The position numbers and the translations under genes were made by a program. 64,000 nucleotides of DNA. Origin: Cerasicoccus arenae (lineage in GTDB: Bacteria; Verrucomicrobiota; Verrucomicrobiia; Opitutales; Cerasicoccaceae). The notes under the pieces are model-generated. The model was not told the DNA's origin. It was given only the letters and a program-made list of their open reading frames with translations, and made no database searches. The DNA lies in assembly GCF_014651635.1 (NCBI RefSeq), contig NZ_BMXG01000003.1, positions 1 through 64,000 of the forward strand. The letters run 5' to 3'. The stretch's first letter is position 1. Every line of letters begins with the position of its first letter. Shown here in pieces: positions 25,823 to 42,176 of the stretch.

Positions 25823-27454
25823 ATGCCTAAAACGAATTCACGCCCCGCCAAGAAATTACCCTCCGCCCCGAAGACCACGAAATCCTTCGAGGAATCCCTC
25901 TGGGAAACCGCGACCAAGCTGCGGGGGAGCGTTGAGTCCTCGGAATACAAGCACGTCGTGCTGTCGCTGATCTTCCTCAAGTTCGTCTCGGACAAGTTCG
26001 AGGAGCGCCGGGCGGAGCTGGTTGCGGAGGGGAAGGGGGACTATGCGGATATGGTGGAGTTCTACACTATGCGGAATGTCTTCTACCTGCCGGAGACCTC
26101 CCGCTGGTCTTATATCCAGCAGCATGCCAAGCAGGGCGACATCGCGATCAAGATCGACTCCGCCCTCACCGCCGTCGAGAAGAGCAATGCCTCGCTCAAG
26201 GGCGCCTTGCCGGACAACTACTTCTCCCGCCTCGGGCTGGATGGCAGCAAGCTCTCCGCACTCATCGATGCCATCAACAACATCGACACTGTCGGCGACA
26301 AGGAGGAGGACACCGTCGGGCGTGTCTATGAATACTTCCTGGGGAAATTCGCCGCCTCCGAGGGCAAGCTGGGGGGCGAGTTCTACACGCCCAAGTGCGT
26401 GGTCAATCTCATCGCTGAGATGATCGAGCCTTACAAGGGCAAGATCTACGATCCCTGCTGCGGCTCGGGCGGCATGTTCGTCCAGTCGCTCAAGTTCGTG
26501 GAAAGCCACCATGGCAATACCAAGGACATCTCCGTGTACGGGCAGGAAATGACCGCCACGACCTACAAGCTGGCCAAGATGAACCTCGCCGTGCGGGGGC
26601 TCTCGGCCAACCTCGGCGAAGTCCCCGCCGATACCTTCTTCAAGGACCAGCACCCCGACCTCAAGGCCGACTACATCATGGCCAATCCGCCCTTCAACCT
26701 GAAGGACTGGCGCGGCCCTGACGAGCTCGTCCACGACGGACGCTGGAACGGCTACGACACCCCGCCCACGGGAAATGCCAACTACGCCTGGATTCTCCAC
26801 ATGGTCTCCAAGCTTTCGGAAAACGGCGTAGCCGGCTTCGTCCTCGCCAACGGCTCCATGTCCACCAACACCAGCGGCGAAGGCGCGATCCGCCAGAAGA
26901 TGGTCGAGAACGACCTCGTGGACTGCATGATCGCCCTGCCCGGCCAACTCTTCTACACCACCCAGATCCCCGTCTGTCTCTGGTTCCTGACGAAAAACAA
27001 AAAGGCCGACAGTGAACGCGGCTACCGCAACCGCGAGGGCGAGACCCTCTTCATCGATGCCCGCAAGATGGGTTCCATGATCAGCCGCACGCAAAAGGAG
27101 CTGCTACCTGAGGACATCGCAAAAATCGCCGCCACCTATCACAACTGGCGTTTGGATGATGGGGGAGGGATGCGTGAAGACGGTTCCATCGTGCTGGTTG
27201 ATCGCGATAGTTCATCCATCTATTTGGATACGCCCGGCTACTGCAAATCCGCCACCCTCGAAGACATCCGCAAGCATGACTACGTGCTCACCCCTGGGCG
27301 TTACGTCGGCGCGGCCGATATCGAAGACGACGGCATACCCTTCGAAACCAAGATGTCCGAGATGAGCCAGACGCTTTACGCTCAGATGGAGGAGTCGGCA
27401 AAGCTGGATGAGGTGATCCGGAAAAACTTAGAGGGCTTGGGGTATGGTGGGTGA
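25823..27454 (+). CDS. hsdM: Type I restriction-modification methyltransferase subunit
   Basis: This 543-residue protein is the modification subunit that methylates adenine at N6 and forms the M2S core. An N-terminal HsdM helical domain ('SFEESLWETATKLRGSVESSEYKHVVLSLIFLKFVSDKFEER', about 20-65) precedes the SAM-binding motif I 'DPCCGSGGMF' (about 210). The catalytic motif IV is 'MANPPFN' (about 285-291). Length is normal. The DNA is more GC-rich and uses different codons from hsdS and the next gene. Translation overlaps hsdS by 11 bp. It is the first gene of a 14.6-kb operon; no clear promoter or Shine-Dalgarno sequence is visible in the 225-bp upstream gap. Confidence 0.97.
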   Translation: MPKTNSRPAKKLPSAPKTTKSFEESLWETATKLRGSVESSEYKHVVLSLIFLKFVSDKFEERRAELVAEGKGDYADMVEFYTMRNVFYLPETSRWSYIQQHAKQGDIAIKIDSALTAVEKSNASLKGALPDNYFSRLGLDGSKLSALIDAINNIDTVGDKEEDTVGRVYEYFLGKFAASEGKLGGEFYTPKCVVNLIAEMIEPYKGKIYDPCCGSGGMFVQSLKFVESHHGNTKDISVYGQEMTATTYKLAKMNLAVRGLSANLGEVPADTFFKDQHPDLKADYIMANPPFNLKDWRGPDELVHDGRWNGYDTPPTGNANYAWILHMVSKLSENGVAGFVLANGSMSTNTSGEGAIRQKMVENDLVDCMIALPGQLFYTTQIPVCLWFLTKNKKADSERGYRNREGETLFIDARKMGSMISRTQKELLPEDIAKIAATYHNWRLDDGGGMREDGSIVLVDRDSSSIYLDTPGYCKSATLEDIRKHDYVLTPGRYVGAADIEDDGIPFETKMSEMSQTLYAQMEESAKLDEVIRKNLEGLGYGG

Positions 27455-28877
27455 GAGAGCAGAAACAAAAACTGGTGGGCGTGAGGCATCAACCGGTTTT
27501 ATTCCCGGCGACTATTCACTGGCAGTCGGGATGCCAGCAACGCCGCCACCCAAAGGCTGGAAATGGTCTAAGCTAACTGATCTCGCTCGTTTGGAATCCG
27601 GCCACACACCAAGTCGCAAGTATCATGAATACTGGGACGGCGGGGTTTGCTGGGTCGGGATTCGTGATGCGACCGCAAATCACGGCCAAACCATCTACGA
27701 CACGAACCAACACGCTTCAGAACTGGGGATAAAAAACTCCTCCGCAAGGTTGTTGCCGAAGAACACTGTCTGCCTTTCCAGGACTGCTTCGGTTGGCTAC
27801 GTGATCGTCATGGGAAAGGAGATGGCGACCAGTCAGGATTTTGTGAACTGGGTATGCTCCGAAGAACTGGATCATCAGTTTCTGAAATACATCCTGCTTT
27901 CAGAGAACCGGAGTTTCCTTCGCTTCGCCAGCGGCACAACCCACCAGACGATTTACTTTCCAGAGGTAAAAGCCTTTCATATTTGCCACCCGCCCCTCCC
28001 CGAACAAAGAGCGATTTCTCACATCTTGGGTAGTTTGGATGACAAGATTGAGTTAAATCGGCGGATGAATGCGACGCTGGAAGGGATGGCGCAGGCGCTC
28101 TTCAAAAGCTGGTTTGTGGACTTTGACCCGGTGATCGACAATGCCCTCGCCGCCGGCAATCCCATCCCCGACGAACTCGCCGACCGCGCCGAAGTCCGCC
28201 GCCAAGCCCTCGCCAACGGCACCGCCAACCGCGAAGCCGCCAAACCCTTCCCCGCCGCCTTCCAACAAACCGAATCCATGGGCTGGATCCCGGAGGGGTG
28301 GGAAATCAGTTGTTTCGGGGAAGTCTCAACCTGTTTCGACAGAAAAAGAATTCCTCTTTCAAAGCCGCAACGCGAAGTGAAAAAGCCCGGAAAGATTCCT
28401 TACTACGGAGCTACCTCGATAATGGATTACGTGAACGAGTGGATCTTTGATGATACCTATCTTCTGATCGGTGAAGATGGATCTGTCATTAAAGATGACG
28501 GAACGCCATTCGTGCAATACATCTGGGGGAAATCATGGGTGAATAACCACGCACATGTTCTGCAAGGGAAGGACGGGATATCGACAGAGCACCTGATGTT
28601 ATTCATGCAGTCACAGAATTTAGCGGGTTACGTCACTGGGGCTGTTCAACTGAAAATCAACCAGAAAAACATGAACAGCATTCCATTCTTGAAAGCTCGT
28701 GATTCGGTCAACTTACAATTTTCCGAAGCGGTCACTCGACTGTATGAACGCATCAAGCTGCTCAGCGAAGAAAATGTAACGCTCATCAACCTACGCGACA
28801 CTCTCCTCCCGAAACTTATCTCCGGAGAGTTGCGCCTTTCCGATACAGCAGTCAAAGCCTACGAACTAACAGCATGA
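27444..28877 (+). CDS. hsdS: Type I restriction-modification specificity subunit
   Basis: A 477-residue protein that determines the two-part recognition sequence. The two target-recognition domains each open with the typical 'GWKWSKLTDLARLESGHTPSR' and 'GWEISCFGEVSTCFDRKRI' patterns (about residues 32 and 287). They end in conserved spacer helices ('RAISHILGSLDDKIELNRRMNATLEGMAQALFKSWFVDFDPVI'). The recognition sequence cannot be deduced. The target-recognition domains are AT-richer than the conserved part, as expected for segments exchanged by recombination. Overlaps of 11 bp with hsdM and 4 bp with the next gene indicate coupled translation. Confidence 0.95.
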   Translation: MVGERAETKTGGREASTGFIPGDYSLAVGMPATPPPKGWKWSKLTDLARLESGHTPSRKYHEYWDGGVCWVGIRDATANHGQTIYDTNQHASELGIKNSSARLLPKNTVCLSRTASVGYVIVMGKEMATSQDFVNWVCSEELDHQFLKYILLSENRSFLRFASGTTHQTIYFPEVKAFHICHPPLPEQRAISHILGSLDDKIELNRRMNATLEGMAQALFKSWFVDFDPVIDNALAAGNPIPDELADRAEVRRQALANGTANREAAKPFPAAFQQTESMGWIPEGWEISCFGEVSTCFDRKRIPLSKPQREVKKPGKIPYYGATSIMDYVNEWIFDDTYLLIGEDGSVIKDDGTPFVQYIWGKSWVNNHAHVLQGKDGISTEHLMLFMQSQNLAGYVTGAVQLKINQKNMNSIPFLKARDSVNLQFSEAVTRLYERIKLLSEENVTLINLRDTLLPKLISGELRLSDTAVKAYELTA

Positions 28878-31294
28878 GCACTTCATATTCAAACTGGTTC
28901 CGCGTCGACCTACATATTCACACTGACTGGAGCAAGAAGACCAAAATTGGCGACTACAACGGGACGTTTACTGTTGCGAAGTTACACGAAAAGCTTACCG
29001 GAAATCAGGTCGCGGTATTCTCCCTTACTGACCACAACATCATAAACATTGATGCTTACAAAGAATACTACTCAGCGTACTCAGAGGAGCAAAACCCTTT
29101 GCTTCTTGTTGGTGTTGAACTCGACATCATCTTAGAATCCAGCTCTACGGTGACGTATCACACCCTGATAATCTTCAATTTGTGTTCAGCAGATGGAGCA
29201 CAACGCGTGCATGATGCACTCGAGCAGAAATACTCGGAAAGAGGATTAGAGGCCACAGAACGCGTCCTGACGATGACCGAAGTCATCGAAATCTTTCCAG
29301 ATGATGACTTCTTCTTTATCCCTCACGCAGGAAGCAATAAGAGTATCATTACGCCTTACCGAGAAAATATCCGGGCAGCTCAGCAAATGATTATTCTAAT
29401 GCAGAGCGCTATGGAAAAGGTTAAGGAGCAACGACGCCACGAATACAATCTAAGATTTAACGATATTCTGACTGAAGCGTTCAAGAATCGAAATGACCAC
29501 GCTTATATTGAGTTTTCTGACAACCACTGCATCGAAGCGTATCCTTGTACGGGTCTAGGTGAAGACGCGGTAGAGCATTCCTTCTACTATCTCAAGGGCA
29601 GAAAGAGTTTTGAAACCTTGAGGCAAGCGTTCATTGATCCCCAATCCAGAATAAGGTCTAGTCAGCAGTTTAGTTCAATCCGCCCCTCACAGCGGCATCT
29701 TCAAGCTCTAGAGATTGATCCCCATGGAATTTTAGCGGGTCAAACAGTCACCTTTAGTCCTCACCTAAATGTTGTCATTGGCGGTAGATCGAGCGGAAAA
29801 AGCCTTTTCCTTTCCATGCTTGGCCAGAAGATTGATTCAATCCAGAACAGGGCAAACACGAATTACCCAATCAAAACGGATCGTGTGAAAATTAGAGCAG
29901 TCCAGGACGGGGGGCTGACTTTACAGACATCAATTGAAGCGAGACGATTAACATACATTGGACAGGGAGAGATCGTCAATTATTTCGAGCATGGCAATCT
30001 CAGTCGACTTGCCAATTCGACCGGAGCAAGTTCCGATTATGAAACTTCAAAAAAAGCGTTTGCCGAACACAGGCAAGACTTGGACTCCAAGGTTGAAGAT
30101 CTGCTTAGTGCATACAAAAAGAGTACTTTGCTCTCTGGTGAAAAGTTCATCCTGCACAAGTCAACTTTAGATCATCTATTTGGAGATAGCTTCACATTCA
30201 CATGGGATGATGAGAAGGTTCGGGAGAAATGTGATTTTACTGATCCCATTAATGATGCGGGAGAGAATATTTCTGATTTATTGATTCAGACTGAAGCGTT
30301 TAGAGATGACCCGCTGTTTGGTTTCACTAGTCAAGAGGAAGATCTGATCCAATCCTTCATCGAGCTCGTCGAGCGAAAGAAGACTGGGCTGGAGAAGGTG
30401 TCGAGTGATAATGCCAGCACTTTGGTGTTTCTCCAAAGTGTCGACCAAATTGTTTCTTCTAGAAACGCTGAGCTCGACGAAGGAGCTAGATTGAAAGCCG
30501 AAGCACGGATAGAGGTTCGGGAGCTAAAGAGCAGAGTTGCGGAACGCTTTCAGAATCTTAGTGATCTAAATTCTACCTCTCGCGAAGTTTCATCGTTCAA
30601 TTACAGCAAAGCGGAGGAAATAGGCCTTAATAACGGTATAAATCTAGTTCTTGAGGTGGAGCCAATTCCCGGCACTACTGTTCAAAGTTTGATAACAGAT
30701 GGCATCAAGGATGCGGATAACTCGAAATCCCTGTTCCTTGTTCTTCTGGATGTTTTGGCGGGAAACTGCCTGATCAAACATCACGGAGGCAATAGTGCTG
30801 AATCGCTGGAAAAGAAGATTCTATCGCAGTTAGAGCCAATATACGATCATCTCAATAGCCCGAGCGATCATCTCAATTATGCGGACGGCGAAACATCTAA
30901 GAGCAAAAGTCCCGGCTACAATTCTGAGAAGTATCTAGAAATCGTCTTAAGAAGTGCTGAGACGGAGTTGATCGTCATCGATCAACCGGAAGACAATTTA
31001 GGAAATGCATTTATAGCCGAGCGTTTGGTTGAACTGATTCGAGAGATTAAGTTTCAGAAGCAGGTATTTTTGGTGACCCACAACCCGTCTATTGTTGTAC
31101 ATGGTGATGCCGAAAATATCATTATCGCTACGAATGAAAACGGTATTGTCACATACTCACAAGTGGTCATCGAGGATAAGTCTTCACAAAAAGTGATCTG
31201 CAAGATTCTCGATGGGGGCGAATACATCTTCGACAAGAGATCTAAGAAATACAACATTGAGAGAATCCTAAGAGAACATGAGCGAGAAAAATAG
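28874..31294 (+). CDS. PHP-domain ATPase, TrlF-like, inside the hsd operon
   Basis: This 806-residue protein joins an N-terminal PHP-type metal-dependent phosphoesterase domain ('FRVDLHIHTDWS' at about 8-19, 'VFSLTDHN' at about 50) to an SMC/ABC-like ATPase. Walker A is 'IGGRSSGKSLF' (about 303). The ATPase signature region and Walker B are 'LIVIDQPEDNLGN' (about 699), with a switch His in 'VTHNPSI'. A coiled-coil-like stretch lies between. The DQPEDNL form is shared with RloC, a tRNA nuclease found in hsd loci, and with the NCBI-named TrlF family. I infer a nuclease activated when restriction fails. Start overlaps hsdS by 4 bp. Confidence 0.85.
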   Translation: MSTSYSNWFRVDLHIHTDWSKKTKIGDYNGTFTVAKLHEKLTGNQVAVFSLTDHNIINIDAYKEYYSAYSEEQNPLLLVGVELDIILESSSTVTYHTLIIFNLCSADGAQRVHDALEQKYSERGLEATERVLTMTEVIEIFPDDDFFFIPHAGSNKSIITPYRENIRAAQQMIILMQSAMEKVKEQRRHEYNLRFNDILTEAFKNRNDHAYIEFSDNHCIEAYPCTGLGEDAVEHSFYYLKGRKSFETLRQAFIDPQSRIRSSQQFSSIRPSQRHLQALEIDPHGILAGQTVTFSPHLNVVIGGRSSGKSLFLSMLGQKIDSIQNRANTNYPIKTDRVKIRAVQDGGLTLQTSIEARRLTYIGQGEIVNYFEHGNLSRLANSTGASSDYETSKKAFAEHRQDLDSKVEDLLSAYKKSTLLSGEKFILHKSTLDHLFGDSFTFTWDDEKVREKCDFTDPINDAGENISDLLIQTEAFRDDPLFGFTSQEEDLIQSFIELVERKKTGLEKVSSDNASTLVFLQSVDQIVSSRNAELDEGARLKAEARIEVRELKSRVAERFQNLSDLNSTSREVSSFNYSKAEEIGLNNGINLVLEVEPIPGTTVQSLITDGIKDADNSKSLFLVLLDVLAGNCLIKHHGGNSAESLEKKILSQLEPIYDHLNSPSDHLNYADGETSKSKSPGYNSEKYLEIVLRSAETELIVIDQPEDNLGNAFIAERLVELIREIKFQKQVFLVTHNPSIVVHGDAENIIIATNENGIVTYSQVVIEDKSSQKVICKILDGGEYIFDKRSKKYNIERILREHEREK

Positions 31295-31604
31295 AACCTG
31301 TAAAATAGTTGTTGATTCGACTGCTGAGGAGATTTCGATATCAGGTCTTTCGTCAGAGGATCTGACAATAGGATGCGAAAGCGACATCGATTTCACTGAA
31401 CTAGTATTGAGTTTGGCCAAACTGATCGATAAGGGGGAACCATTAACCCTCGAGATGCCCGCTGAAGAAAGTGACGAAAAGACCTCGTTGGTATTAGCGA
31501 CGATAAAGAACATTACGGAAGCGTATAATGCTAGCCTTGAGGTAGCTGAACTAAGCGCCTGCGCCGAGTCAGACACATCGGATGATGACGACATTCCGTT
31601 TTAA
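31278..31604 (+). CDS. Small acidic protein ending in an SSB-like tip (DDDIPF)
   Basis: This 108-residue protein overlaps the end of the PHP-ATPase gene by 17 bp and is followed 8 bp later by hsdR. Its first 90 residues are acidic with beta-like and helical segments ('VSTAEEISISGLSSEDLTI'-type, 'LVLSLAKLIDKGE', 'TSLVLATIKNITEAYN') and match nothing I know. The last residues are DTSDDDDIPF. The tip DDDIPF is the conserved C-terminal tail of bacterial single-stranded DNA-binding protein, used to bind RecO, RecQ, PriA, exonuclease I and others; no OB fold is present here. I infer a docking or decoy partner of the neighbouring ATPase. Function is not proven. Confidence 0.7.
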   Translation: MSEKNRTCKIVVDSTAEEISISGLSSEDLTIGCESDIDFTELVLSLAKLIDKGEPLTLEMPAEESDEKTSLVLATIKNITEAYNASLEVAELSACAESDTSDDDDIPF

Positions 31605-31612
31605 GATACCGA

Positions 31613-34600
31613 ATGAAATTCACCGAAGCCCAACTCGAATCAGCGATCATTGAACTCCTATCAGCGGAGGGCTACCCGCATGTGCTGGGGGAGACGATAC
31701 TGCGGTCTCCGCAGGAGGTGCTGATCAAGGAAGATCTGCGGCATTTCCTGGCAACTCAGTATGCGGCGGATTTCATCACGCCGCAGGAAATCGAGGCGGT
31801 GATCAAGCAGCTCGAAGCCTACTCCGCGGCGGATCTCTACGAGAGCAACAAGCAGATCATGAAGCTGGTCTCGGATGGCTTTCTGCTGAAACGGGAGGAT
31901 CGATCCCAGAAGGATCTGTATATCCAGTTGATTGATTACTCGGAGCTGGTGGCTTTCCGCGAACCGAAGGCGGGCGAGGTGCCGTCGATTCTGGCGGAGG
32001 AGGAGCCTGTCTATCAAACGGGTGGGAACATTTTCAAGATCGTCAACCAACAGGAGATTATCGGCTACGAGAAGCGCATCCCGGATGGGATTCTCTACAT
32101 CAACGGGCTGCCCTTGGTGGTGTTTGAGTTCAAGAGCGCGATACGCGAGGAGGTCGGGATTCACAACGCCTACGAACAACTGACGGTGCGCTACAAGCGG
32201 GATATCCCGGAGCTTTTCAAATACAATGCGTTCTGCGTGATCAGCGACGGGGTGAACAACAAGGCGGGTTCGTTCTTCGCGCCCTATGAGTTCTACTACG
32301 CGTGGCGGAAGACGGATGGCAGTGAGTTGGTAGAGGTGGATGGGATCAACTCGCTCTACTCGATGATCAAGGGGATGTTCCAGCAGAGGCGGTTGATCGA
32401 TGTGATACGGAACTTCGTTTACCTGCCGGACGTTTCCCGCAAGGAAGAGAAGATCCTCTGCCGCTATCCGCAATACTACGCGGCGACGAAGCTCTACCGG
32501 AACATCCTGGAGCACATGAAGCGTCCCGACGGTGAAGGCGGCTTCACGGGCGATGGCAAGGGCGGCACCTACTTCGGCGCGACGGGTTGCGGCAAGAGCT
32601 ACACGATGCTCTTCCTGGCGCGGCTGCTGATGAAGAGCGTGGATCTCGCGAGCCCGACCATTGTCCTGATCACCGACCGCACGGATCTGGATGACCAGCT
32701 CTCGGGACTTTTCACCAACGGCAAGGGCTACATCGGCGATGAAGCTGTGATCAGCGTGGAGAGCCGCGCTGACCTGCGCAGGCAACTGAAAGGGCGGAAC
32801 AGCGGGGGAGTCTTTCTCACGACGATCCACAAGTTCACCGAGGATACGGAGCTGCTGACGGATCGCACGAACGTGATTGTCATCTCGGATGAGGCGCACC
32901 GCAGCCAGGTGAACCTCGACCAGAAGCTCAGGATCACGGAAGACGGGGTGAAGCGGACGTATGGCTTCGCCAAGTATCTGCACGACTCCCTGCCGAACGC
33001 GACCTATGTGGGATTCACCGGAACGCCCATCGATGCGACGCTGGATGTCTTCGGCGAGGTGGTGGATGCCTACACGATGACGGAATCGGTGGCGGACGAG
33101 ATCACGGTGCCCATCGTTTACGAAGGCCGGGCGGCCAAGGTGATCCTGGACAACAGCAAGCTGGAGGAGATCGAGAAATACTACGACGAGTGCGCCGAGG
33201 CGGGGGCGAGCGATTACGCGATAGAGGATAGCAAGAAGACGATGGCGAACATGGGCGCGATCCTGGGCGATCCGAAACGCATCGCGGCGCTGGCGGAGGA
33301 TTTCGTGGCGCACTACGAGAAGCGCGTGAGCGAGGGCTCGACGGTGGCGGGGAAGGCGATCTTCGTGAGCAGCAGCCGGCAGATTGCCTATGATTTCTAC
33401 AAGCAGGTGATCGCGCTGCGCCCGCAGTGGGGTGAGGTGCGGATCTGTGCGGAAGGCGTGGAGCTGAGCGAGAAGCAGAGGAAGGAGATTCTGCCGATGG
33501 AATACATCAAGATGGTGATGACACGGGGGCAGGATGATGAGAAGGCGCTCTACGATCTGCTCGGCAACAAGGACGAGCGGAAGAAGTTCGATACCCAGTT
33601 CAAGAAGGCGGAATCCAATTTCAAGATCGCCATCGTGGTGGACATGTGGCTGACGGGATTCGACGTGCCTTTCCTCGATATCATCTACATCGACAAGCCG
33701 GTGCAGCGCCACAACCTGATCCAGACGATCTCGCGGGTGAACCGGAGATTCGAGAACAAGCAGAAGGGGCTGGTGGTGGACTACATCGGCATCAAAAAGC
33801 AGATGAACTTGGCGCTGGCGCATTACTCCAAGGCGGACAGCAGCAACATCGAGGAGATCGCGGCATCGATCACCGTGGTGAAGGATCATCTGGATCTGCT
33901 GGGACGGATCTTCCACCAGTTCGATACGAAGCCCTATTTCAGCGGATTGCCGATGGAGCAGCTGCACTGCCTGAATCTGGCGGCGGAGTTCGTGCAGCTC
34001 ACGGAGAAGATCGAGAAGCGGGTGATGTTCCTGGTGAAGCGGTTGAAAGCCGCCTACGACATCTGCAGCGGGAGCGATGCCTTCACGGAAACTGAGCGCG
34101 ACCACATCCACTTCTATCTGGCGGTGCGGGCTATCGTGGCGAAGCTGACCAAGGGCGAAGCACCCGACAGCGCGCAGATGAATGCGAAGGTGCGGAAAAT
34201 GATCTCAGATGCGCTGCAGAGTGACGGGATCGAGGAGATCTTCAAGCTGGGCGAAGACGGAGCGAAGGAGATCGATATCTTCGGCGACGACTACCTCGCC
34301 AAGATCGAGAAGATCAAACTGCCGAATACGAAGATCAAGCTGCTGCAGCAATTGCTCAAGCGGGCGATCGATGACTTCAAGAAGGTCAACAAGGTCAAGG
34401 GGGTGGATTTCACTAAGCAGTTCCAGGCGCTGGTGAACAAATACAACGAGCGGGATGAGAAGGATATCCTGCGCAGCGAGGTGCTGGAGGGATTCTCCGA
34501 TGAAATGATCGCCCTGATCCAAGCGCTGCAGAAGGAGAAGGAATCCTTCGGCGAGATGGGGATCGATCTGGAGGAGAAGTCATTTTACGACATCCTCAAG

Positions 34601-34852
34601 ACACTCGCCCATAAGTACGATTTCGAGTATCCCGAGGACAAGCTGATCAAGCTGGCCAAGGAGGTGAAGACGGTGGTGGATGATAAAGCGAAATACACAG
34701 ACTGGAGCCAACGCGCCGACATCAAGGCCGAGCTGAAAGTGGATCTGATCATCCTGCTGGCGGAGAACGGTTATCCACCGGTGGATAGGGATGAGGTTTA
34801 CAAGGAGATCTTCGAGCAGGCGGAGAATTTTAAGAAGTATCAGGCGCGATGA
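31613..34852 (+). CDS. hsdR: Type I restriction enzyme R subunit
   Basis: This 1,079-residue subunit translocates and cleaves DNA lacking the methylation set by HsdM and HsdS. The N-terminal nuclease domain shows 'GILYINGLPLVVFEFKSA' (ExK at about 172-174). The SF2 motor follows with Walker A 'GATGCGKSYT' (about 322) and DEAH in 'VISDEAHRSQ' (about 424). Motif III-like 'GFTGTPID' and motif VI 'QTISRVNRRF' come next. The C-terminal helical region for M2S binding is present. Length is normal. Base composition is GC-rich like hsdM, unlike the two genes inserted between hsdS and hsdR. The gene ends in a 4-bp overlap with the next one. Confidence 0.97.
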   Translation: MKFTEAQLESAIIELLSAEGYPHVLGETILRSPQEVLIKEDLRHFLATQYAADFITPQEIEAVIKQLEAYSAADLYESNKQIMKLVSDGFLLKREDRSQKDLYIQLIDYSELVAFREPKAGEVPSILAEEEPVYQTGGNIFKIVNQQEIIGYEKRIPDGILYINGLPLVVFEFKSAIREEVGIHNAYEQLTVRYKRDIPELFKYNAFCVISDGVNNKAGSFFAPYEFYYAWRKTDGSELVEVDGINSLYSMIKGMFQQRRLIDVIRNFVYLPDVSRKEEKILCRYPQYYAATKLYRNILEHMKRPDGEGGFTGDGKGGTYFGATGCGKSYTMLFLARLLMKSVDLASPTIVLITDRTDLDDQLSGLFTNGKGYIGDEAVISVESRADLRRQLKGRNSGGVFLTTIHKFTEDTELLTDRTNVIVISDEAHRSQVNLDQKLRITEDGVKRTYGFAKYLHDSLPNATYVGFTGTPIDATLDVFGEVVDAYTMTESVADEITVPIVYEGRAAKVILDNSKLEEIEKYYDECAEAGASDYAIEDSKKTMANMGAILGDPKRIAALAEDFVAHYEKRVSEGSTVAGKAIFVSSSRQIAYDFYKQVIALRPQWGEVRICAEGVELSEKQRKEILPMEYIKMVMTRGQDDEKALYDLLGNKDERKKFDTQFKKAESNFKIAIVVDMWLTGFDVPFLDIIYIDKPVQRHNLIQTISRVNRRFENKQKGLVVDYIGIKKQMNLALAHYSKADSSNIEEIAASITVVKDHLDLLGRIFHQFDTKPYFSGLPMEQLHCLNLAAEFVQLTEKIEKRVMFLVKRLKAAYDICSGSDAFTETERDHIHFYLAVRAIVAKLTKGEAPDSAQMNAKVRKMISDALQSDGIEEIFKLGEDGAKEIDIFGDDYLAKIEKIKLPNTKIKLLQQLLKRAIDDFKKVNKVKGVDFTKQFQALVNKYNERDEKDILRSEVLEGFSDEMIALIQALQKEKESFGEMGIDLEEKSFYDILKTLAHKYDFEYPEDKLIKLAKEVKTVVDDKAKYTDWSQRADIKAELKVDLIILLAENGYPPVDRDEVYKEIFEQAENFKKYQAR

Positions 34853-35820
34853 ACTACTGGTGGGTAAACCATAAGCAAACATTTCGCCAAGAATTTAGCG
34901 GGAAGTATGTTTGGTGCCCAAAGCTGAAGTCGAACGGACAGCAAAGCCATTACTATGAGTCGATGCGCGAGGTACAGCCAGGCGATTTATTATTTTCATA
35001 TGCCTATGCGGCGGTGCAGGGATTTGGCTTTGCTCGGACGCATTGCTACTCTTGTCCGAAGCCCGATGACTTCGGCAAAGTGGGCGACGTCTGGAACACG
35101 CGCGGCTGGCGAGTGGATGTCGAATTCCAAGCATTTTCCAATCCGCTGCGGACGGCCGATTACGCCAGTGAAATTGCACCATTGCTGCCCAACAAGTATT
35201 CGCCGATACGTGCCGATGGCTTCGGCAACCAGGTGGCTTATTTTGCGATGGTCCCCGAAGCAATGGCAATGAAAGTCGCTGAGCTAGCCGACCCTATGCT
35301 GGCCATGGGATTAACAAGCGTGGGCGAACGAGAGAATTTAATCGAGATTGCGCTACCCTCTTTGCAAGAGTGGGAAGACCGACAGCAGCAAATTATTGCT
35401 GCTAGGAATGAACTACCGCTAACTACCCGTGAGGCACTGATACAATCTCGAATCGGCCAGGGGCTCTTCAAGCAACGCGTTGGTCGCTTCGAACGTGCTT
35501 GCCGAATTACCAAGGTAGATAATCCAACGCACCTGATAGCCAGCCACATTAAACCCTGGCGTGAGTCGGACGACGAAGAGCGTCTCTCTGCTGGCAATGG
35601 CCTACTCCTCACGCCTTCCATCGACCACCTGTTTGATCGTGGGTTCATCTCCTTCGCTGATGACGGAGAACTGATCGCCTCTCCAATCGCCGACAAAGCA
35701 TCGCTGAAGCAGATGGGTGTCGCAACCGATGAAGTGATCCATGTTGGCCAATTTAACACCGACCAAAAACATTTCCTCGACTACCACCGTAAAGAAATCC
35801 TGCTGAAGTCAGCCTCTTGA
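34849..35820 (+). CDS. EVE-like plus HNH endonuclease, probable modification-dependent nuclease
   Basis: This is a 323-residue protein. The N-terminal ~110 residues ('MNYWWVNHKQTFRQEFSGKY' onward, 'QPGDLLFSYAYAAVQGFGFA') resemble EVE/PUA-like domains that bind modified bases. The C-terminal third is an HNH_2 nuclease: 'PTHLIASHIKPWRE' with the first His, 'LSAGNGLLLTPSIDHLFDRG' with the Asn and second His. This pairing is typical of modification-dependent (type IV-like) restriction enzymes that attack phages with altered bases, complementing the type I system. It shares a 4-bp overlap with hsdR and is 4 bp from the next gene. The modified base is unknown. Confidence 0.8.
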   Translation: MNYWWVNHKQTFRQEFSGKYVWCPKLKSNGQQSHYYESMREVQPGDLLFSYAYAAVQGFGFARTHCYSCPKPDDFGKVGDVWNTRGWRVDVEFQAFSNPLRTADYASEIAPLLPNKYSPIRADGFGNQVAYFAMVPEAMAMKVAELADPMLAMGLTSVGERENLIEIALPSLQEWEDRQQQIIAARNELPLTTREALIQSRIGQGLFKQRVGRFERACRITKVDNPTHLIASHIKPWRESDDEERLSAGNGLLLTPSIDHLFDRGFISFADDGELIASPIADKASLKQMGVATDEVIHVGQFNTDQKHFLDYHRKEILLKSAS

Positions 35821-35824
35821 AACC

Positions 35825-36694
35825 ATGAAAACGAGCCCTAAAACCCTCCAAATATTTCTACCTGAAGGAGATGCAGCCGGCATACGTGTGGCAGAGTTGA
35901 CAACACGCATTGTGCAAGCCGTCGCGGTTCCTCGCACTCGCCTGAAAGAGTTTTTTGAGCGAGCGGAATCCAGGCATATTGGCGTTTATTACTTATTTGG
36001 TGGTGACGACGAGTCGACCAAACCGATCGCCTATATCGGGCAAACGGAAGACTTGAAACAGCGTCTAAAGAATCATGACAGCAATAAGGAGTTTTGGAAT
36101 CTGGCAATCATTGTCATTTCGCGAACCCACTCCTTCACCCAAGCCCACATCCGATGGCTGGAGTGGCATTCTATTCGATTGGCAAATGAAGCAAAGCGTT
36201 TTCGCCTGGATAATGGCAATGCCGGTTCGGAGCCATTCGTGACGGAGCCTATTCGCGCGGACTTGGAGGAGATCTTTGAGACAGCGTCACTGCTGCTGGA
36301 AAGCTTGAGTTTTCCACTATTTGACCCACTGATCGAGCGGCTTTCAATGAGGCAAAAAGAGCAGGACTTGTGGCATATCAATGCGACTGGTGTTAGTGCG
36401 ACTGCAACCTTTACAACTGATGGCATCGTCGTGCACAAGGGATCGATTGCTAGATTAAAGATGTCTCGTAGTGCGGAAAACAGCTTCTTTGACAAACGGC
36501 GAGAGCGCATGATTCAAGATGGAATCCTGATCGAGAAAGATGGCGGCTACCTATTCACTGAAGACTACCCATTCAAGTCGCCCAGTGGCGCAGCAGCAAT
36601 CGTACGCGCCAGACATTCCAATGGCTGGATCGAATGGAAAAACAAATCCGGCCAAACGCTGAAGGAAGTCAAGCGCTCCGATGCCGACGAATAA
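35825..36694 (+). CDS. GIY-YIG nuclease-family protein with DUF4357
   Basis: This 289-residue protein contains a GIY-YIG fold at about residues 45-130 ('HIGVYYLFGGDDESTKPIAYIGQT': GVYY and YIG as the two signature triads, then 'WLEWHSI' with the possible catalytic Glu). The C-terminal ~90 residues ('ATFTTDGIVVHKGSIAR', 'SGAAAIVRARHSNGWIEWK') match the DUF4357 module. Such proteins are common next to restriction genes, though their activity is mostly undefined. The gap to the previous gene is 4 bp and it overlaps the helicase gene by 14 bp, so it belongs to the same operon. Confidence 0.82.
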   Translation: MKTSPKTLQIFLPEGDAAGIRVAELTTRIVQAVAVPRTRLKEFFERAESRHIGVYYLFGGDDESTKPIAYIGQTEDLKQRLKNHDSNKEFWNLAIIVISRTHSFTQAHIRWLEWHSIRLANEAKRFRLDNGNAGSEPFVTEPIRADLEEIFETASLLLESLSFPLFDPLIERLSMRQKEQDLWHINATGVSATATFTTDGIVVHKGSIARLKMSRSAENSFFDKRRERMIQDGILIEKDGGYLFTEDYPFKSPSGAAAIVRARHSNGWIEWKNKSGQTLKEVKRSDADE

Positions 36695-38444
36695 CCAGCT
36701 AGCCCTCTACCAGGAGCTCAAGCAGCTCGTGGCCGAAGAGTCCCGAGCCTTGCAAGCCAGCCACGAGAAACTGCTGCGCATGCCAGTGGGCAAGCGGGTG
36801 TTTCAAGGGAAATGTTTGGAGCGGGTTACCTATCGGCAGAAGCAGGACAACAACGTGCTGCGCTTTGAGTGTGATGAGAATCTATCCGAGTTTCGTGAAG
36901 GCGACCCGATCGTCCTGCACACAGGAAATCCCTTTGAGCCGGTAAGCTATGGCAACTGGGTGCGTGATGGTGAAACCTTCAGCGGACGAGAGTTTGTCGA
37001 GATTGCCGTCTCTGATGTAGGTACCCAGGCGATTGCCGCCTGTGGTGACTCCTTGATGATCGACGCTGGCATCTTTGATCCAGCGCCGCAGCTCAATCGA
37101 GCTTTGGACGAAATGGGAGCGTCGAAGCGTGGGCAGTCGCGTATCTTGCCGCTGATCGAAGGCAAAGTGCAAACGGATGGCGTTGATCCTGAAGAATACG
37201 ACAACGCAGCGACCGAAGCAGCAACCAACAACTTTAACGATTCGCAACAAGACGGGGTCGCCATTGGCAGCACGACTGACTGGTGCGCCCTGATTCAAGG
37301 ACCTCCAGGAACGGGTAAAACACGAGTGCTAGCGCAAATCGTTCGGCAGCGTTTGGCTTGTGGCGAACGCATTTTGGTAACGGCGTGCACGCACCGGGCG
37401 ATTCATGAAGCGCTGAATAAAATCCATGGACTAAATCCGGAGCTGGAGCGCGTGGCTAAAGTAGGGGTTTATAGCATTGATCAGAGTTTGGAAGTCCCGG
37501 TTTACGATAACTATGCCGAGTGTGGTTTCGACGAGAGCACCGAGGGCTACGTGATCGGCGCGACGCCCTTCACTGCGTTCAGCAGTCGGTTGAATCGGGC
37601 AGAGTTTGACTGCGTGATTATCGATGAGGCCAGCCAGATGACCTTGCCCTTGGCGATCATGGCGATGCTCAGCGCAGATTGCTATGTGGTCATTGGCGAC
37701 GAAAAGCAGTTGCCGCCAGTCTTGCTTTCCAAGTGTGCCTTTGAGGCTAAAAATTTTGGGCTGTTTCAACGTCTGCGTCATGTTGCGGAGCGTGAAATGC
37801 TGACGACGACCTACCGCATGAATCATGAAATATGCCGCTGGGTGAGCTCGGAATTTTACTCGGGTGAACTGGAGCCGCATGAAGGGTGCAGGGATAATGT
37901 GCTGCCACTGAGCGGCGAGGCGAGCCAACCCTGGCTCAACGAAGCCCTGAGTAGTGAGCATAGTCTGGTGTGGATACCCACGCAGGTTGAAAATACCCGG
38001 CACTACTCGATGGAGGAAGCTGACCTCGTGAACCAACTAATAGCTGAGTTGCATCGGCGGGGGCATCCCCTGAGCGACGTGGGTGTGATTACCCCCTTTC
38101 GTCGGCAAGCGCGAGTGATCCGCCAACGATTGCGCCAGAATCGCACCTGGGATCGAGCGGATTTGCAGGGCGTCGTCGTAGACACCGTAGAGCGTATGCA
38201 GGGTCAGGAACGCAGCGTGATCATCCTGAGCACGGCGGCGGCGGATCGGCGGTTTCTCAGCGCCGTCGAGGAATTTGTATATTTTCCGTCGCGCCTGAAT
38301 GTGATCGTGAGTCGCGCTAAAGTGAAGGTTATCGTGCTAGCGGCGGAGAATTTTTTGCAAACAGTGAGCGCGATGGATGAAGTGCGGGAAGCGATTGAGC
38401 ACTGGCGAAGCTTGAGGGAGGCAAGTCACGTCGTTGACGTATAG
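36681..38444 (+). CDS. SF1 helicase, UPF1/DNA2/NAM7-like
   Basis: A 587-residue superfamily 1 helicase. After an N-terminal domain of about 190 residues that may be a beta-barrel ('VFQGKCLERVTYRQKQDNNVLRFECDENLSEF') come the motor motifs. These are Walker A 'IQGPPGTGKTRVLAQIV' (about 205), DEAS in 'CVIIDEASQMTLPLAI' (about 316), motif III 'VIGDEKQLPPV', 'TTYRMNHEI' and motif VI 'NVIVSRAKVKVIVLA'. The GPPGTGK/DEAS form is that of UPF1, DNA2 and related nucleic-acid helicases. Members of this branch occur in several defence systems. The gene is 14 bp into the previous one and 2 bp before the next, so it is co-expressed. Confidence 0.88.
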   Translation: MPTNNQLALYQELKQLVAEESRALQASHEKLLRMPVGKRVFQGKCLERVTYRQKQDNNVLRFECDENLSEFREGDPIVLHTGNPFEPVSYGNWVRDGETFSGREFVEIAVSDVGTQAIAACGDSLMIDAGIFDPAPQLNRALDEMGASKRGQSRILPLIEGKVQTDGVDPEEYDNAATEAATNNFNDSQQDGVAIGSTTDWCALIQGPPGTGKTRVLAQIVRQRLACGERILVTACTHRAIHEALNKIHGLNPELERVAKVGVYSIDQSLEVPVYDNYAECGFDESTEGYVIGATPFTAFSSRLNRAEFDCVIIDEASQMTLPLAIMAMLSADCYVVIGDEKQLPPVLLSKCAFEAKNFGLFQRLRHVAEREMLTTTYRMNHEICRWVSSEFYSGELEPHEGCRDNVLPLSGEASQPWLNEALSSEHSLVWIPTQVENTRHYSMEEADLVNQLIAELHRRGHPLSDVGVITPFRRQARVIRQRLRQNRTWDRADLQGVVVDTVERMQGQERSVIILSTAAADRRFLSAVEEFVYFPSRLNVIVSRAKVKVIVLAAENFLQTVSAMDEVREAIEHWRSLREASHVVDV

Positions 38445-38446
38445 CC

Positions 38447-40456
38447 ATGGCCCGCATGCTTCCAGATCGCTTGCCGCAAAAGCTGCCCGACCACTTGGTG
38501 AAGGTGTGGCGGCAACTGCGTGCGATCGATGACGATGATCTAGTTTGCCGTATCAGTTACCAGATCGCCAATCCAAATCACCCAGATTTTCTGGTGATCT
38601 ACCGCAACCGCGCCGCGTTCTTGCTGGCCGTGAATAGCGCAGATACGGAGGCTGTGGATCGATATTTCCAATGCGAATTGCTGGACGGCGATGGCGAAGC
38701 GCCTGAGGACCTGAAGCAGGCGCATAGCCTAAGTGCCTTCACCCAAGTGGTGCTTGAAGAACTGGGTGCTGGCGCGGATCTGAGCTTGCAGCATTGGGTG
38801 CTCTTTCCCAAGGCATCCGATGAATCGGTGGAACGACTCGCGCGCAGTTGGCAGGGTGCGCCACGATTGTTCCTCGGCAAACAGGAGTGTCGCGAGGAAT
38901 CGTTGCTGCGGCATTTTCAAGCGGCGGCGGACCTTGAGCTGGACCAACAGGTATTGAACTTGATCGTCGGGCGTTTTGCGCCAGAGGCGGCGATTCCCGC
39001 AAGCTGGGTGACGCGCGCCGAGCGATTGTCGACTAAGGAAGCTCCCAAACAAATGGACTTCCTCCTGGATTATGACCAGGAGGCGGCCATGAAGCGTGAC
39101 TTGGAGTTGTCCAGTGAAGCATTTAAGGCGGCCAGCTCGGGGCATGTGCGCCTCGTGACGGGCACGGCGGGCTGCGGCAAAACGTTGATCCTGCTTTTCC
39201 GCGCGCGTCTCTCCGCCACACTGAATGATAATCAGCGTGTGCTCGTGCTGATGCACAACAAACCGCTGCGGGCGGATCTACAGACGCGGGCGAAGGAGCT
39301 GGGTATGTCGCGCAACGTGGAATGGCGAACGTTCTTCAGTTGGCTACATTCGATGATGAAGTTTAACATGATCGAGCCAGCGACCCGCAATGCGTTTATC
39401 AACCAAGCATTGAAAGACGAAGAGCTTGAAGGGCAGTTCACACGCGAGTTCCTGCTGGATGAGTTTGAATGGATTTCGGATAACGCTCTGGATAGCCCGT
39501 CACTCGACTGGTATCTGGAAAGCGCGCGGACCGGCCGCAAGCGAGCCCTGCAACCCACGCAGCGCCAAGGCGTCTACCAGCTATACTCCCTATACCGGAA
39601 GATGCTCGATTCGCAGGACCAAGTTGATTGGCCAGTGGCTCCCCGACTTTTTCTCAAGAAGCTGCGCGATGGCGCAATTGCGGGAAAGACTTACCACACC
39701 ATTTACATCGATGAAGCCCAGTTTTTTGCACCGATCTGGTTTGAGTGCGTGAAGGCTGCGCTTCACCCCGAATATGGTCGGCTCTTTATGGCGGCGGACC
39801 CAACCCAAGGCTTTTTACGCAGTGGACAGTCCTGGGTGCAAGTCTTGGGTGGCGACATGCGCGGGCGTTCGCAGCGCCTAACTAAACCCTATCGGAATAC
39901 CCGTGAGATCATGGCATTGGCTAAGCGATTCTACGTGAGCCGTATCCGCAGCGAGGAGGACGAAGTGAATCTGCCAGATCAGGCCTACATCGAATCGATG
40001 CCCAGTGGCGAGGCAGCTAACTTGGTCAACGCGGGCAGCCGATCGATGCAGAATGTCTTGGTGGAACAATTGAAGCAGCTCTTCGATAGCGGGCTCAACC
40101 CAGGTAATGTCCTACTGATCGATGCGTCAGGATACAGTGAGCAAAGCGAACTGGATCACCTGGGGATACACTTTGGCGATAAGATTGTCTCGGCTGCTGA
40201 CGCTAAGAACCGGAGCCAAATGCGCGTCAGCACGATCAACGCTTGCACGGGCATTGAATCACCGATTGTGGTGATCATCGGCCTGGATCGATTGTTCGAG
40301 CAGGAAAAAGCGCTCGGCATGGATGAAATAGATCGCGAAGAACTCGTGCGAAAGAATACTAAGCGTGTCTTCGTGGCAATTACCCGGGCTTCGCAAAAGG
40401 TCGTGGTGGTTTTTAAGAGCGAGAATACGCGGAGAATTTTGACAACGAAAGAATGA
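38447..40456 (+). CDS. SF1 helicase-like ATPase (UvrD/DUF2075-like) with unknown N-terminal domain
   Basis: This is a 669-residue protein. The ATPase part has Walker A 'VTGTAGCGKTLILLFRAR' (about 238), 'VLMHNKPLRADLQTRAKEL', Walker B 'HTIYIDEAQFFAPIWF' (DEAQ, about 421) and motif VI 'RVFVAITRASQKVVVV' near the C-terminus, as in UvrD-type and DUF2075 ATPases. The N-terminal ~190 residues have a faint likeness to the NERD nuclease fold ('DFLVIYRNRAAFLLAV'), but the family's ExK catalytic pair is not seen, so this is weak. The last gene of the operon; an integrase gene converges on it 64 bp later. Confidence 0.8.
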   Translation: MARMLPDRLPQKLPDHLVKVWRQLRAIDDDDLVCRISYQIANPNHPDFLVIYRNRAAFLLAVNSADTEAVDRYFQCELLDGDGEAPEDLKQAHSLSAFTQVVLEELGAGADLSLQHWVLFPKASDESVERLARSWQGAPRLFLGKQECREESLLRHFQAAADLELDQQVLNLIVGRFAPEAAIPASWVTRAERLSTKEAPKQMDFLLDYDQEAAMKRDLELSSEAFKAASSGHVRLVTGTAGCGKTLILLFRARLSATLNDNQRVLVLMHNKPLRADLQTRAKELGMSRNVEWRTFFSWLHSMMKFNMIEPATRNAFINQALKDEELEGQFTREFLLDEFEWISDNALDSPSLDWYLESARTGRKRALQPTQRQGVYQLYSLYRKMLDSQDQVDWPVAPRLFLKKLRDGAIAGKTYHTIYIDEAQFFAPIWFECVKAALHPEYGRLFMAADPTQGFLRSGQSWVQVLGGDMRGRSQRLTKPYRNTREIMALAKRFYVSRIRSEEDEVNLPDQAYIESMPSGEAANLVNAGSRSMQNVLVEQLKQLFDSGLNPGNVLLIDASGYSEQSELDHLGIHFGDKIVSAADAKNRSQMRVSTINACTGIESPIVVIIGLDRLFEQEKALGMDEIDREELVRKNTKRVFVAITRASQKVVVVFKSENTRRILTTKE

Positions 40457-40520: not shown

Positions 40521-42176
40521 TTATCGCAGCTTTTGTTTAGCTAATCTTATCGTTGAATTTGCAGGTGTCGTCCAAGGTGTAACCGATATTGGATAGTCGA
40601 TATTTTTGATCTCCTCGTAGAGAACTGTAATTTGAAATCCAACACCGTAGCGTGAACTCACCGCTGAATCGGCGTGCCCGGTGAGTGCATCATGCTTATC
40701 CCGGGGTATTCCCGCGTTACGGCAAGCGTCTTTGAATGTATGCCGGAAGCTATGGAATACTTTACGGGTGTCTTCGACCCCACAGTCCTGTGAGATGTAT
40801 TTATTGATCCACTTGGAGAACTGACGCGTACACTTTTCCTGATGGTGATTGAGATGAGGAAACAAGTGGGTGTGCTTTAGTCTTTGGATTGAGGCGATGT
40901 AGCTGATAAATCCCAATTCCAGCAACTTTGGGTGAAGGGGGATTTGGCGCATGCTACCCGATGTTTTCAATGATTTGCCTTCGCCATCAACATTGATGTC
41001 CAAATACCAAAGGTCATCCTGCTGTTTAACGTCGGTTAGCCGTAGTTGGCCCAATTCCTCGAGTCTCGCACCGGTGTATAGAGCCATTAGCGGAAGCCAA
41101 TATGCGGTTGCTATTCCACACTTTGGATGTCGCGCTTGTCCTAAATATACTGGGGACTTTTCGAATATAGCCTTTAGGTCCTCACTATCGAATGGCAATC
41201 GAGATTTCGCGGATACTTTGGGCAAGGGAGCAGCGATGCCTAAGGCCGGGTTCCGATCAATGTAGCCATTTTTGATGCACCAACTAAGCACAGAACGGAC
41301 TGCAGCGAGGATTTTGTTAATGGAGGCTGGGTGTAGTCGCGCACAATTATTCTTGCGATATTTTGCGATTAATTGAGGCATGGGTAATGAACGATCATTG
41401 CGCGCAACGCGCTTGGGAACTTGCAAAAGGGCTTCTTTAAACTCCCTAATATCGGCAGGAGTGATGGTCTCGACTGTCTTGTCACCCTTGAGATCAATGA
41501 ATCGCCGTATAGCCAATCTCCATTCTTGAATGGTTATGTCAGGGCGCTGTCCATCACGCTCCCACTTGATAAGCATCTCACTGATTCGATTGACGCTAGG
41601 AGATGTCGAAGCGTGAACGTTGGATATGGAGTGGGCGGGTTCTTCCAAATACTCAAGGTGCTGATTATCACCTGATGATCGTCGCATTATTTCTTCTAGG
41701 TATTCCAATCGGGCTTGGAGAAGATAGTAGCCAGCGCGTCGCCACGATTGAGTCTCGGGTTCTAAAAATGGCGCACGTTCCCGAGTCACTGAGTTTATGA
41801 AATCTTTCCGTGAGCGAAAGTCCATTTGCGCAAGTGATTGCCGTAAGGTTTCAGGAGAGTCATCGGGTGGAGTAACGGTTCCTGCCAGGCGATTCTCAAA
41901 GTCCTGATTAAGCGCCTGTCGTTTCCAATTTTCAGCCAGAGCTTTGGCTTCGGCGTGTCCAAACTGATCCATTAAGCGATATACATCCTCAAGCATTTGA
42001 TTTACGGATGCCATGACCAATGCGGCACGTCGATTGGCGCTGGCGATCCGTCTCGTTTTCAGCGAAAGACAGAGCTCGGTTTGACCGAGTAGGGGTTTTA
42101 GCGCAGCAGGCACGCGCTGTCTATAATAGTACCCGGATGAACGTTTTTGAACATAGCTGGCCAAGCGCATAGGCAA
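40521..42176 (-). CDS. Tyrosine-type integrase at a tRNA-Arg scar
   Basis: This is a 551-residue integrase with an N-terminal DUF6538-like region ('MRLASYVQKRSSGYYYRQRVPAALKPLLG'). The catalytic residues are Arg in 'LYTGARLEELGQL', HxxR in 'FHSFRHTFKDACR', and His and Tyr in 'LTGHADSAVSSRYGVGF'. It is longer than most phage integrases because of the N-terminal extension. The start lies about 100 bp from a 22-bp tRNA-Arg 3' fragment (42279-42300), probably its attachment site. It converges on the defence operon and is the likely mover of that island. Confidence 0.92.
   Translation of the reverse strand: MPMRLASYVQKRSSGYYYRQRVPAALKPLLGQTELCLSLKTRRIASANRRAALVMASVNQMLEDVYRLMDQFGHAEAKALAENWKRQALNQDFENRLAGTVTPPDDSPETLRQSLAQMDFRSRKDFINSVTRERAPFLEPETQSWRRAGYYLLQARLEYLEEIMRRSSGDNQHLEYLEEPAHSISNVHASTSPSVNRISEMLIKWERDGQRPDITIQEWRLAIRRFIDLKGDKTVETITPADIREFKEALLQVPKRVARNDRSLPMPQLIAKYRKNNCARLHPASINKILAAVRSVLSWCIKNGYIDRNPALGIAAPLPKVSAKSRLPFDSEDLKAIFEKSPVYLGQARHPKCGIATAYWLPLMALYTGARLEELGQLRLTDVKQQDDLWYLDINVDGEGKSLKTSGSMRQIPLHPKLLELGFISYIASIQRLKHTHLFPHLNHHQEKCTRQFSKWINKYISQDCGVEDTRKVFHSFRHTFKDACRNAGIPRDKHDALTGHADSAVSSRYGVGFQITVLYEEIKNIDYPISVTPWTTPANSTIRLAKQKLR

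Follow-up and report, generated by a model that had tools for sequence, protein, structure and literature searches.

The stretch of DNA considered here (below, the window) comprises the first 64,000 nucleotides of contig NZ_BMXG01000003.1 of Cerasicoccus arenae and contains a type I restriction-modification locus with hsdM, hsdS and hsdR in one operon (Table 1). Two further genes lie between hsdS and hsdR, of which the first encodes a protein with a PHP domain and an SMC-type ATPase and the second a small acidic protein. The ATG of the second gene is situated inside the last 17 nucleotides of the ATPase gene, its stop codon is TAA (31602-31604), and hsdR starts 8 nucleotides past this stop. 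Close behind hsdR lie genes for an HNH protein, a GIY-YIG/DUF4357 protein (PADLOC PDC-S14) and two SF1-type helicases, spaced or overlapping by only a few bases. From hsdM to the second helicase, nine genes make up one tight run (25823-40456), which looks like a defence island. A tyrosine recombinase gene (40521-42176, minus strand) adjoins this run.

Table 1. Features of the hsd operon and of the two genes nested in it (positions in the window).
Feature	Coordinates	Strand	GC3	Characteristics
hsdM	25823..27454	+	0.827	N6_Mtase 6e-104
hsdS	27444..28877	+		Methylase_S 2e-38
PHP-domain/SMC-type ATPase gene, TrlF-like	28874..31294	+	0.473	806 aa; NF045780 E 1.2e-75, 256 bits
Overlap of ATPase gene end and partner gene start	31278..31294	+		17 nt
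Small acidic partner protein gene	31278..31604	+	0.468	108 aa, net charge -19, pI 4.05
Codons of the SSB-like tip DDDDIPF	31581..31601	+		Evidence: sequence and rarity
hsdR	31613..34852	+	0.821	HindI-like C-terminal domain; HSDR_N 8e-31, T1RH-like_C 2e-93

In the alignment, the PHP motifs of the ATPase, its Walker A (GGRSSGKS) and its Walker B (VIDQPED) are all intact. The score of this protein lies below the curated cut-off of 350 bits of the TrlF family NF045780, and by that model its sequence is that of a relative, not of a member. Directly behind the ATPase gene, where a TRL-type pair has an AlbA_2-like TrlG, the 108-aa acidic open reading frame is found instead. TrlG-like partners, judged by inspection, occur in loci L013, L018, L020-L022 and L041.

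The product of the small gene has the C-terminus ESDTSDDDDIPF, with SDDDDIPF as its terminal residues, and so shows the acidic end followed by hydrophobic-P-F at the exact C-terminus that is characteristic of the single-stranded DNA-binding protein SSB. In Escherichia coli, the C-terminal tip of SSB is DDDIPF (PMC5872125). Searches of Pfam, NCBIfam and PADLOC left the small protein without a match, and hence without one to an SSB model; the host SSB, by contrast, matches Pfam SSB at 1.7e-32. A single AlphaFold2 model of moderate confidence (mean pLDDT 73.4, pTM 0.56), built from an input alignment of 2 sequences, has the predicted topology beta-beta-beta-alpha-beta-alpha with strands at residues 6-13, 18-22, 29-32 and 56-59 and helices at 39-50 and 67-97, after which a loose acidic tail follows with the SSB-like tip at its very end. 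This predicted fold does not resemble an OB fold. A comparison of the model with PDB structures was uninformative, the best Z being 5.8 and no hit reaching E < 0.001. Thus, three statements of a preliminary description of this DNA hold, namely the presence of an SSB-like tip in the 108-aa product, the location of its gene between those of the PHP-ATPase and HsdR, and, at the moderate confidence of the model, the view that the protein is not an SSB.

The tip is uncommon by several measures. When the residues of the protein were shuffled, an end of the form [DE]x3-[ILVM]-P-F appeared at a probability of 1.9e-6, and when only the acidic last 24 residues were shuffled, at 1.5e-5, neither value being corrected for the selection of this feature among many. 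Across the 4.1-Mb genome, 4 sites match the DNA pattern for [DE][DE]-hydrophobic-P-F-stop; one of them was dropped, as it reads TGG and hence has no stop, and a reversed-pattern control in the same genome gave 1 match. The three genuine carriers in the whole genome are the host SSB (DEDVPF, ending in VPF and not IPF), a DUF3127 protein (EEDVPF) and the small protein. The DUF3127 protein, of 116 aa and with the end EEEDVPF, is encoded on another contig of the same genome (L056:1168-1518, plus strand; genome G000, contig C17).

A scan of 28 genomes of the same order, in which TAA or TAG was taken as the stop, returned 27 pattern sites, including 17 in SSB (identified by phmmer), 3 in spurious short frames and 7 in other proteins. 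SSB accounts for 17/24 of the genuine proteins with such an end, and in the host's order this C-terminal end is mostly an SSB signature with a non-SSB background; at least one member of that background, a short-chain dehydrogenase, is a likely accident. Since the genome has only three carriers and 17 of 24 carriers in the order are SSB, chance is a poor, though still conceivable, explanation of the origin of the tip. Three other proteins of the background may be mentioned in their own right. In genome G965, the C-terminus of a HerA-type ATPase (L063:1501-2994, minus strand; DUF87; PADLOC HerA models with E down to 1e-22), a type of protein known from defence systems, reads PLEDDDIPF and matches the SSB-type tip exactly. 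In genome G970, a 268-aa protein with the abortive-infection C-terminal domain Abi_C (L065:193-999, minus strand; E 3.5e-13) ends in SELIDEIPF. In genome G972, a protein of 239 aa (L080:1504-2220, minus strand) ends in NDEDEDDLPF and has no Pfam or PADLOC match. The literature yielded no description of an SSB-like tip on a protein other than SSB.

Relatives of the ATPase were collected from a GTDB contig scan, which gave two, and from genome searches, which gave the others. The genome searches comprised 1787 look-ups, with some genomes repeated and mostly in the host's own order and phylum and in Bacillota, and revealed close relatives only in genomes G710 and G289 and distant ones in G676 and G834. 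Distant TrlF relatives were found in just one of the viral-contig scans, and the plasmid and phage protein searches yielded no homologue of the small protein and, with the ATPase, either general TrlF proteins only or no match. The locus is rare.

In Proteiniclasticum aestuarii (Bacillota; locus L005), the full-length ATPase shares 44% identity with that of the window, and the next open reading frame, of 98 aa, overlaps its gene by 14 nucleotides and ends in DVDKDED. The small proteins of L005 and of the window share a common core, ENDIDFTDLVKQLTFLIE and ESDIDFTELVLSLAKLID, respectively, with about 30% identity and a BLASTP E of 3e-5 in this single comparison. The small protein of L010 (genome G710, Bacillota) is nearly the same as that of L005 and ends in VVDENDD. 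These two are the only homologues clear by sequence; both come from another phylum, occupy the same slot between PHP-ATPase and hsdR, and have 29-30% identity to the window protein in the body. Small acidic open reading frames were also found in L011 (G676, a more distant ATPase relative; 78 aa, end VSSDF), and, overlapping the ATPase gene end, in L052 (G834) and the viral contigs L048 and L024, with the ends SSEKEE, DDDPAEE and LRQESE, respectively. Because a profile comparison of the small-protein group with L011, L048/L052 and L024 showed no significant link, these four count as partners similar in style rather than as established homologues. An AlphaFold2 model of the L048 partner was set aside (pLDDT 48). 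On the same viral contig, the PHP-ATPase gene has an in-frame TAG after LMVTHRP (L048:4150-4410), past which the C-terminal part of the ATPase and the overlapping partner frame are readable; this copy may be broken or mis-sequenced.

None of the six compared partners (L005, L010, L011, L052, L048 and L024) ends in IPF, five of the six have at least four acidic residues among the last twelve, and the net charge across the partners ranges from -12 to -19. The preliminary description had proposed to test whether homologues keep the tip while the body varies. In L005 (KDED) and L010 (ENDD), the body and the acidic character are kept and IPF is missing, and by this test the interpretation of the tip as a conserved adaptor appears to be refuted, as judged from two clear homologues. 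SSBs of Bacillota bear such tips too, so the homologues in L005 and L010 had an equal opportunity to gain one. The small protein may be the same partner of the ATPase with an IPF end that arose by accident, the tail of the family being variable and acidic and acting by charge alone. The ends of the six partners and the existence of non-SSB proteins with similar ends in related genomes agree with this explanation, but the low shuffling probability even within the acidic tail and the strong tie of such ends to SSB in the order do not; we consider it a serious, if somewhat doubtful, possibility.

The grouping of the genes provides a more solid result than the reading of the tip. ATPase and partner frames overlap in every pair (L005, L010, L011, L052, L048 and L024), by 14, 14, 1, 23 and 4 nucleotides and by about 24 nucleotides where the ATPase has the in-frame stop. 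In the window, both genes differ distinctly in base composition from hsdM and hsdR (GC3 in Table 1), which suggests that they were inserted into the hsd operon as a cassette. The L005 pair also lies between hsdS and hsdR, and the hsd genes there are non-orthologous to those of the window, with 22% identity in a partial alignment for HsdM and no full-length alignment for HsdR. The G676 pair is situated upstream of hsdM, and that of G834 has no hsd genes in its vicinity. In Vibrio cidicii, the hsdS-hsdR slot is occupied by a canonical TrlF gene and an AlbA_2-like gene (L013:4468-8243), so that at least two kinds of PHP-ATPase pair are found in this slot.

The conserved unit is a two-gene cassette of a short TrlF-like PHP-ATPase and a small acidic protein, the start of which overlaps the ATPase stop. 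We conclude that the cassette is one that inserts into restriction operons. The small protein probably goes with the ATPase rather than with the restriction enzyme, since comparable pairs are found beside non-orthologous hsd genes, upstream of hsdM or with no hsd genes in the vicinity. A physical association of the two proteins would be in keeping with the pairing and overlap of their genes, from which we infer it. The earlier suggestion that the small protein recruits repair factors to the restriction complex is weakened by the same distribution. A role as an adaptor for DNA-repair enzymes at the HsdR complex would suit a gene located directly upstream of hsdR in the operon, but homologues in the same slot have no tip, the pair accompanies non-orthologous hsd genes in L005, and a similar pair stands elsewhere without hsd nearby; this role is, in our opinion, very improbable.

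Alternatively, the small protein could inhibit the PHP-ATPase or serve as its antidote, acting as an acidic DNA mimic held in the DNA-binding groove until infection, with the tip helping to sense competition from SSB or single-stranded DNA. The high acidity of all partners and the tight, overlapping pairing of the genes would fit such a role, as would the analogy with PrrC, which is silenced by the linked type I restriction enzyme (PMC2610378). However, PrrC and RloC domains are absent here, and the partner gene sits after that of the ATPase. Antidote genes often precede the toxin-side gene. An antidote function is improbable, less so than that of an HsdR adaptor.

The explanation that we prefer, tentatively and at somewhat less than an even chance, is that of a small acidic partner of a PHP-ATPase in a mobile cassette, with an SSB-type tip that was gained in this lineage and docks, or competes, in the host. 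The small protein would be a partner subunit of the ATPase encoded just upstream, and the two genes would constitute a mobile cassette that has inserted into the hsd operon and probably serves in defence. Binding to the ATPase would fall to the folded body (residues 1 to about 97), and regulation of the ATPase or of its contacts to the acidic tail; this is the part that conservation favours. In the host lineage, this tail ends with a full SSB-type tip, which might dock in an SSB-tip pocket of the RecO, RecQ, PriA, RecJ or Exo I type or, alternatively, compete with SSB at this pocket, and either event would tie the ATPase to single-stranded DNA sites. Docking in such pockets requires a tip of this type on an exposed acidic end (PMC5872125, PMC11981726). 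It is favoured here because the tip is rare and complete in form and disfavoured because the homologues lack it; the VPF end of the host's own SSB and the seemingly accidental end of the short-chain dehydrogenase also speak against it. A lineage-specific docking tip seems possible, and the probabilities of a functional and an accidental tip appear nearly equal, roughly as in a coin toss. The broader proposal that a defence accessory protein independently gained an SSB-type tip and plugs a PHP-ATPase nuclease into the host SSB-binding network, with the HerA-type (LEDDDIPF) and Abi_C (LIDEIPF) tips of the order as additional examples of a tendency common among defence proteins, is rather unlikely in our estimation.

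The study defines a compact cassette, nested in type I restriction operons, whose partner protein is named in none of the family libraries used. If the tip is functional, the case would demonstrate that immune modules can borrow the docking code of the host SSB.

Among known systems, the TRL locus of Photorhabdus (trlR-trlF-trlG; PMC7554251; NCBIfam NF045780) has a PHP domain followed by an SMC-type ATPase and a partner gene directly behind it, as here, and the TrlF-TrlG-type pair of V. cidicii is located between hsdS and hsdR, as is the window pair. The window ATPase is, however, shorter than TrlF (806 aa compared with some 875 or more) and below the family cut-off, and its partner is a 108-aa acidic protein instead of an AlbA_2-like TrlG. 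PrrC and RloC (PMC2610378, PMC3874168) combine an ABC/Rad50-like ATPase with a fused nuclease domain in or near an hsd operon, as in the window, where the nuclease domain is PHP and not an anticodon nuclease and a separate small acidic partner is encoded. With SSB, the small protein has in common a loose tail whose very last residues are acidic ones followed by I-P-F (PMC5872125), but it has neither an SSB domain match nor an OB-like topology in the model, and its tip is not conserved among homologues. The literature search found no defence system that itself bears an SSB-like tip. A link of SSB to defence is not outlandish, since phage SSB is known to trigger the systems Hna, Nhi, Hachiman, Retron-Eco8 and AbpAB (PMC13381803), which connect SSB with defence ATPases or nucleases, as is proposed here; in those systems the trigger is the phage SSB, whereas in C. 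arenae the defence locus itself would bear the SSB-like tip.
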